Shown: positions 24,644-25,469 of the stretch, piece by piece
Numbering within the stretch: position 1 is the first letter of the stretch
Layout: each line of letters opens with the position of its first letter
Assembly (NCBI GenBank): GCA_905612355.1
Contig: CAJQRU010000062.1
Span: 1 to 35,768, forward strand
DNA from: an uncultured Gammaproteobacteria bacterium
Lineage (GTDB): Bacteria > Pseudomonadota > Gammaproteobacteria > Arenicellales > UBA868
Direction of reading: 5' to 3'
DNA length: 35,768 bases
Translations under genes and position numbers: made by a program
Notes under the pieces: model-generated
Databases searched by the model: none
What the model was told of the DNA's origin: nothing
The model's input: the letters and a program-made list of their open reading frames with translations, nothing else

Positions 24644-24943
24644 GCCCCCGTAGCTCAGTTAGGATAGAGCAATCGCCTCCTTTGTCAGGAAACAAGGGCA
24701 CGAGAGTTGGAAACGCTCTGCGTGAATCTGCTCAAACTCGGTGAAGCCTCAGCACCGTTGGTGGTGGTAATACCGAGCCAAGCCCGTGGCAACGGGAAGG
24801 TGTAGAGACTTGACGGGCAGCACCTAAAAGCCTCACAGCTCATGGTGAAGATAAAGTCCAGACCACAAACAGCACGACTGGCAGTGAAAACTGTAGTGGT
24901 ACGAAGCGATAGGTCGCAAGTTCGAATCTTGCCGGGGGCGCCA
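24644..24943 (+). tRNA. tRNA-Arg (anticodon CCU) interrupted by a group I intron
   Basis: Exon 1 is 24644-24681 and exon 2 is 24904-24943. Joined they give a perfect cloverleaf: acceptor GCCCCCG/CGGGGGC, D stem GCTC/GAGC, anticodon stem ATCGC/GCGAT around loop CTCCTAA, T stem GCAAG/CTTGC, discriminator G and encoded CCA. The anticodon CCT (24679-24681) reads AGG. The interruption lies right after the anticodon's last base, the insertion point known for group I introns in bacterial tRNA-Arg(CCU). Confidence 0.95.
24682..24903 (+). ncRNA. Group I intron (IC3 type) in tRNA-Arg
   Basis: A 222-nt intron without an ORF. P1 is a hairpin of the exon end CCT plus intron TTGT with ACAAGGG (24692-24698), giving the required U-G pair at the 5' splice site. 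Core segments closely resemble the Azoarcus tRNA-Ile intron: 'TCAAACTCGGTGAAGCCT' (24732-24749), the CCCGT-GGCA-ACGGG hairpin (24783-24796), 'AGGTGTAGAGACT' (from 24798) and 'GAAGATAAAGTCC' (24847-24859). The last base is G (24903), as group I introns require. Self-splicing is likely; no endonuclease is encoded, so it cannot home by itself. Confidence 0.93.
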
Positions 24944-24944
24944 G

Positions 24945-25469
24945 ATGACACTCACCACTAAGACTAAAATGGATCTCCAAACTGCTGGATTGGCCCGCCG
25001 ACTGGCGGCGATCACCTATGACATGCTGCTGTTAACGGGTGTGCTTTTTGTCCTGGCCGTACCCATGCCGTTGATTGACGAGGCAACCCGCGCAATCTGG
25101 TGGGTGCAATTAAGCATTCAATTCACAGTGCTGGGATTCAGCTTTTTTTTCTTCGGTTGGTTCTGGACACAGAATGGTCAAACGCTCGGCATGCGTGCGT
25201 GGCGTATGACCATCCAATGCAACGACGGTAAGCCTGTGATGTGGCGTGAAGCCTTTATCCGGTATTTTGTAGCGCTGTTATCGTGGCTACCTGTCGGACT
25301 GATTGCGTGTTGGGTTCTGATCGAGATTGGTCACATTGACAACAACAACTATGCATTGCTGTTACTGGTTTTTATAGTACCGGTACCGGTAGCCATTGCA
25401 TTGCGCTGGCACGATCGATTGTCTCAAACCCGCATGATCGTAGTGCCAAAGCCGGCCCGCCACAATTAG
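24945..25469 (+). CDS. RDD-family membrane protein
   Basis: A 174-residue integral membrane protein with the RDD domain: 'LARRLAAITYDMLLL' near the N-terminus (RR and D of the RDD signature), 'FWTQNGQTLGMRAWRMTI' after the second helix and two more helices. Function is unknown; some members are proposed ion exchangers. The ATG at 24945 is 2 nt after tRNA-Arg, so its G-rich ribosome-binding site would lie in the tRNA acceptor stem. The ATG at 24969 fits the family's usual N-terminus but has no clear site. Confidence 0.88.
   Translation: MTLTTKTKMDLQTAGLARRLAAITYDMLLLTGVLFVLAVPMPLIDEATRAIWWVQLSIQFTVLGFSFFFFGWFWTQNGQTLGMRAWRMTIQCNDGKPVMWREAFIRYFVALLSWLPVGLIACWVLIEIGHIDNNNYALLLLVFIVPVPVAIALRWHDRLSQTRMIVVPKPARHN

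Follow-up and report, generated by a model that had tools for sequence, protein, structure and literature searches.

Reinhold-Hurek and Shub (cited in PMC4033280) reportedly described, in 1992, a group I intron in the tRNA-Arg(CCU) gene of alphaproteobacteria (Agrobacterium type), i.e. in the same host tRNA as the intron studied here. Two alphaproteobacterial-looking loci (L190 and L253) likewise carry an insert after anticodon base 36 with the same core, and they score 119.6 and 117.7 bits with R1, a model of the intron core. The alphaproteobacterial tRNA-Arg(CCU) introns differ from ours in the class of the host and in their exons, and common descent is neither shown nor rejected by the short intron tree. 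The Azoarcus tRNA-Ile(CAU) intron (IC3) is a compact, ORF-less tRNA intron like ours, albeit in another tRNA and at another split position; the compactness and the host of our intron are consistent with subgroup IC3. A tRNA(CAU) intron from a member of the class (L165) scores 135 bits with our own intron model. The introns of tRNA-Leu(UAA) are also ORF-less group I elements of the anticodon loop, and many members of the class have a related intron after base 34 of this gene, whereas the intron described here lies after base 36 of tRNA-Arg(CCU).

A review table of 2014 lists tRNA group I introns in cyanobacteria, alphaproteobacteria and betaproteobacteria only (PMC4033280). Group I introns have been reported from the gammaproteobacterial Beggiatoaceae, where they reside in other tRNA genes (PMC4853749), and tRNAscan-SE 2.0 is not designed for the detection of such introns (PMC8450103). 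On gammaproteobacterial tRNA-Arg(CCU) introns, we found no paper in the open-access literature, most subscription journals lying outside this search. A preliminary description of the present locus, made from its sequence, had proposed a gammaproteobacterial case worth recording. The case is real, but a tRNA intron in Gammaproteobacteria is not new in itself, as the earlier Beggiatoaceae introns show (PMC4853749). While tRNA-Arg(CCU) introns are known from alphaproteobacteria, what this locus adds is a conserved gammaproteobacterial one, together with a distribution wider than in the cited sources.

Results and discussion

A tRNA-Arg(CCU) gene split after anticodon base 36

Positions 24644-24943 of the window, by which we mean the whole 35,768-nt stretch of DNA analysed, constitute a tRNA-Arg(CCU) gene that is split by a 222-nt group I intron 3' of anticodon base 36. 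The gene reads GCCCCCGUAGCUCAGUUAGGAUAGAGCAAUCGC-CUCCU, then 222 nt, then AA-GCGAUAGGUCGCAAGUUCGAAUCUUGCCGGGGGC-GCCA, and the layout of the locus is as follows.

24644..24681, plus strand: 5' exon of tRNA-Arg(CCU), ending at anticodon base U36 (ARAGORN on the joined exons; same exon in relatives)
24682..24903, plus strand: group I intron, 222 nt, too small for a homing endonuclease gene (RF00028; covariation; translated frames)
24904..24943, plus strand: 3' exon of tRNA-Arg(CCU), CCA encoded (ARAGORN on the joined exons; same exon in relatives)
24945..25469, plus strand: gene for an RDD-family membrane protein, directly 3' of the tRNA gene, a neighbour kept across the family (PF06271; adjacency in all parsed family loci)

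When positions 24682-24903 are removed, ARAGORN recognises the joined exons as tRNA-Arg(cct), a cloverleaf with anticodon CCU in which all four stems are paired. The boundaries given in the preliminary description, and its statement that a perfect tRNA results only after removal of 222 nt, are thus confirmed by the very scan of the joined exons that it had proposed. As it had also anticipated, the gene escapes standard scans: default ARAGORN and an Rfam gathering-threshold scan both missed it, and the sole tRNA call in the whole window is a tRNA-Ala at 1902. A promoter scan returned weak matches only. None of the translated frames of the 222-nt intron has room for a homing endonuclease, in keeping with the earlier designation of the intron as ORF-less.

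ARAGORN does detect the gene once introns are allowed, but with a slid junction, so that the tRNA is named Arg(acg). Taken at face value, this would mean that the junction lies elsewhere and that the tRNA is an Arg(ACG), with the insert length unchanged. However, such a junction would have neither a 5'-exon U paired to the guide G nor a G at the end of the intron, and the sequence CUCCUAA is found in all relatives as well as in the intronless orthologues. The Arg(ACG) assignment thus has next to no chance of being correct, and we retain the CCU anticodon.

Match to the group I covariance model

The Rfam group I model RF00028 matches the intron with 37.7 bits (E 3.5e-8 over 461 bases) along the full model length (1-253), and the same match has an E value of 3.8e-8 in a search of the whole genome. 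This check, suggested beforehand, accordingly gave a significant match, albeit one below the curated gathering score of 50, which is a detection threshold and not a structural feature. Among the 44 genomes of the order with a match, just 6 reach this value. Since the other 38 fall short of it, the family cut-off is too strict for introns of this kind. Because of the low score the structure was tested independently.

Fold and covariation

A fold comprising P1, P2, P3, P4, P5, P6, P7, P8, P9.0, P9 and a terminal hairpin was drawn from the window sequence. Pairing was counted in two alignments: A2, which contains 27 gammaproteobacterial Arg(CCU) introns and was used for the main claim, and A1, which contains 49 introns from four host tRNAs. 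The elements, all on the plus strand, are:

24679..24698, plus strand: P1, exon CCU (24679-24681) with guide GGG (24696-24698), U-1 at 24681 opposite G 24696 (U-G in 27/27 Arg(CCU) rows; guide swaps with the host tRNA)
24702..24720, plus strand: P2 hairpin with GAAA loop (fold and A2 counts)
24728..24733, plus strand: P3 5' strand CTGCTC, partner GGGCAG at 24815-24820 (paired in 100% of A2 and 98% of A1, with both-side changes)
24737..24777, plus strand: P4 (24737-24742 with 24772-24777), P5 inside (fold and A1/A2 counts)
24778..24800, plus strand: P6/P6a (fold and A1/A2 counts)
24807..24811, plus strand: P7 5' strand GACTT, partner at 24854-24858, guanosine-binding helix by homology (100% paired; last pair varies between U-A, A-U and G-C)
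24815..24820, plus strand: P3 3' strand GGGCAG (A1/A2 counts)
24821..24847, plus strand: P8 hairpin CACC/GGTG (100% paired; both-side changes in 3/4 pairs)
24854..24858, plus strand: P7 3' strand AAGTC (A1/A2 counts)
24863..24899, plus strand: P9.0 (24863-24866 with 24896-24899), enclosing P9 and a GAAA-capped hairpin (fold and A1/A2 counts)
24903..24903, plus strand: omega G, the terminal G of the intron (invariant column in A1 and A2)

In A2, 97.6% of the cells hold standard pairs, both-side changes occur at 31 of the 59 pairs, and none of 500 shuffles reached any of five measures. The corresponding values for A1 are 94.5% of cells paired and both-side changes at 48 of 59 pairs (0/500 shuffles as high), counts that are lowered by a register shift of one column in the Thr(UGU) rows in P3 and the Thr(GGU) rows in P1. 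When the partners were slid by 1-3 columns, pairing fell to 26-44% in A2 and to 25-44% over both alignments; it is important to note that a structure drawn from one of the counted sequences favours the percentage paired over such slid controls, a bias of which the both-side changes are free. The pseudoknotted P3/P7 core is present together with P4-P6 and P8, with 98-100% of cells paired in P3, 97-100% in P4 and 100% in P7 and P8, all accompanied by both-side changes, so that pairing reaches 98-100% in the helices of the catalytic centre (P3, P7 and P8). In the wider set, support is weak or lacking for P5b, P8b and the upper part of P2. Dozens of relatives share this architecture and covary strongly in it, so it is not a product of chance.

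The preliminary description noted a textbook P1, with U-G where the 5' exon ends, and a terminal G; both are present. Moreover, the P1 guide tracks the host tRNA (CCU/GGG, GGU/GCC, UGU/GCA and UCU/GGA), and in every case checked a G lies opposite the splice-site U. Judged from the aligned sequences, this matching of guide and exon, together with the invariant terminal G, is what one expects of a group I intron that itself recognises the 5' splice site. For this locus, the analysis directly shows the sequence, the fold with its covariation, the match between guide and exon, the conservation and the position in the genome.

Established group I biochemistry suggests how the gene would be expressed. 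In the precursor tRNA the 222-nt insert would fold into a compact group I ribozyme. Free guanosine, bound in P7, would attack 3' of U36, the base that P1 holds in a U-G pair with the guide; in the second transesterification, the freed exon end would attack after the terminal G, so that the two halves of the anticodon loop CUCCUAA are ligated and the intron is set free. AGG would then be read by the spliced tRNA-Arg(CCU). We regard it as close to certain that the insert is a group I intron giving rise to a compact ribozyme of this kind, with guanosine attack in P7 and exon ligation to an AGG-reading tRNA-Arg(CCU), and on the biochemical precedent the intron almost certainly cuts itself out. The same precedent would cover the two transesterifications, splicing inside the cell and the use made of the tRNA. 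The earlier assignment of a group I intron to the anticodon loop of tRNA-Arg(CCU) therefore holds, with a significant RF00028 match, even if below the cut-off of 50, and a covarying fold.

Conservation in the family

A whole-gene search retrieved the gene from relatives at 79-100% identity. By exon parsing, 23 of the 33 family genomes have the same tRNA with the same split position and intact exons, the tRNA halves being intact in every parsed relative; two more have RF00028 matches that were left unparsed. A pattern search of the 33 genomes detected no intronless tRNA-Arg(CCU), only intact tRNA-Arg(UCU), while in most other families of the order it did find an intronless tRNA-Arg(CCU). A second, intact tRNA-Arg(CCU) beside a decaying copy, which according to the preliminary description would speak against an active intron, was found neither in the family genomes nor in the genome of the window, whose assembly (61.7% complete, 143 contigs) leaves room for another such gene; the copy in the window shows no decay. 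AGG makes up 37 of the 618 Arg codons in the window. As the family yielded no other tRNA-Arg(CCU), this gene has to be spliced if it is to serve; with the codon also in use, efficient splicing is the simplest explanation for the conserved gene. The tRNA-Arg(UCU) that is present might read AGG by wobble, so the tRNA-Arg(CCU) gene need not be essential.

In all parsed family loci the RDD-family gene lies 3' of the intron-bearing tRNA, although the protein is only about 30-42% identical between genera. A search with a seven-row protein alignment found this gene in three control genomes used as positives but not in the eight family genomes that lack the tRNA; the whole region is thus absent from those eight assemblies. 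Among the family genomes, we found none in which the locus is present but the intron is missing. Given 23 of 33 genomes with the intron at one site, no intronless copy found and the same downstream neighbour, the intron is very probably old and vertically inherited in this family. In another family, L147 has an intronless tRNA-Arg(CCU) with an RDD gene likewise downstream, and from its sequence it is a candidate for the empty ancestral site. The assembly SP340 contains the intron-bearing tRNA-RDD locus twice (L118, PBDS01000080.1, and L072, PBDS01000072.1), one copy being cut by a contig end, which reflects either mixed strains or a duplication.

Distribution across the class

R1 gives one match in the genome of the window. 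Across the class it matches 73 of 370 sampled genomes (68 of the 339 better ones), part of which are betaproteobacterial, as the GTDB class Gammaproteobacteria takes in the former Betaproteobacteria. The majority of the loci newly retrieved are tRNA genes that an intron interrupts and whose cloverleaf is complete. Their hosts are mainly Leu(UAA), split after base 34, besides Arg(UCU), Ser(UGA), Arg(CCU) split after base 36, and a tRNA with anticodon CAU. A scan of named genomes revealed same-site Arg(CCU) introns in the betaproteobacterial Herbaspirillum and Duganella and in gammaproteobacterial genomes, among them Methylococcaceae, Chromatiales, Contendobacter and Endonucleobacter. The same scan showed Thr(GGU) introns in alphaproteobacteria, including Acuticoccus. 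In intron trees of only 145-147 columns, the Arg(CCU) introns of Gammaproteobacteria form one group (87/91), and Herbaspirillum is placed with the Leu(UAA) introns; the best tree sets the Herbaspirillum group apart, but a single alpha/beta/gamma Arg(CCU) clade is not rejected (p-AU 0.119).

Several further loci deserve mention. In the order and the class, tRNA-Arg(UCU) genes (L021, L022, L024, L027 and L181) carry a related intron after base 34 and form one tight group (100/100). A tRNA-Thr(UGU) gene split after base 36 occurs in two families of the window's order (L023 and L030); Tritonibacter mobilis has another (L311), located on a replicon of 1.26 Mb. Two intron-bearing tRNA-Arg(CCU) genes, L039 (genome G072, family f2) and L040 (G100, f8), have identical exons across two families and differ in this respect from the intronless genes of the order, which hints at transfer of the whole tRNA gene.

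Related introns on plasmids and phages

Related intron-split tRNA-Leu(UAA) genes are found in phages and in about 1,280 plasmids. On pCTX-M3 (NC_004464.2, about 61830-62122; L310:1892-2184), a group I intron of 213 nt (RF00028 36.8 bits) interrupts an unannotated tRNA-Leu(UAA) gene after base 34; once joined, the exons read as Leu(taa), and the gene adjoins aac(3)-IId and IS26. Matches were obtained in 1,280 plasmid records, 935 of them conjugative, and in 1,273 of these records the DNA recurs at >=99%; matches to it are also present in 635 of 5,426 complete E. coli genomes. According to a review, the phage introns known by 2014 were all located in protein genes (PMC3984707). Among 120 IMG/VR viral contigs matching the intron pattern (L186-L305), at least 70 carry a tRNA-Leu(UAA) split after base 34, and those checked encode the phage proteins RIIA, clamp loader and DNA ligase. 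In seven viral contigs (L188, L193, L199, L202, L223, L251 and L252) an intron of the same type lies 5' of a conserved non-tRNA stretch resembling AAAGGCGCTTGTACA, which probably represents one protein-coding site. Phages and plasmids offer vehicles that need no intron-encoded endonuclease.

Relic, recent arrival or resident intron

One could imagine that the insert is the remnant of a group I intron that has decayed or no longer splices, in which case the tRNA gene would be dead and AGG would be read by another tRNA. The existence of tRNA-Arg(UCU), the RF00028 score under the Rfam cut-off and the incomplete genome would all be compatible with this. Against it, the 23 parsed family genomes conserve, at about 80-100% identity and with compensatory changes, an intact core and guide, the U-G of the splice site, omega G and both exons, and no intronless copy was found in the 33 family genomes; we consider a relic extremely unlikely. 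Alternatively, the intron could be a mobile element that reached the window's genome recently, either by homing or within a transferred tRNA gene. Its patchy occurrence in the other families of the order, where intronless genes are common, the identical exons of L039 and L040 and the related split tRNA genes on plasmids and phages point in this direction. Within the family, however, every genome found with the locus has the intron, in one conserved place beside the RDD gene, and for this reason recent homing was dropped for the window's family. As the intron also lacks an endonuclease gene, a recent arrival is very improbable. Vertical descent fits the window's family; elsewhere, its presence is patchy.

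For the class as a whole, we tentatively suggest a broader scenario, which stands at slightly less than an even chance: compact group I introns of the tRNA anticodon loop may be common and largely unannotated in Gammaproteobacteria (about one fifth of the genomes sampled, at least seven tRNA species and three split positions), be retargeted between tRNAs by changes of the short P1 guide, and reach new hosts inside entire tRNA genes that phages and conjugative plasmids carry, instead of moving by means of an endonuclease of their own.

Implications

The locus adds a well-supported, conserved tRNA-Arg(CCU) intron from a marine member of the Gammaproteobacteria. Because the tRNA and Rfam scans used here skip such genes, genomes are wrongly recorded as lacking a tRNA. 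Standard annotation greatly understates how common related introns are in these bacteria and in their plasmids and phages. With dozens of same-site introns that display guide-exon covariation, intronless neighbours in sister families, and related split tRNA genes on plasmids and phages, the set makes the spread and persistence of ORF-less tRNA introns, a long-standing question, directly testable.
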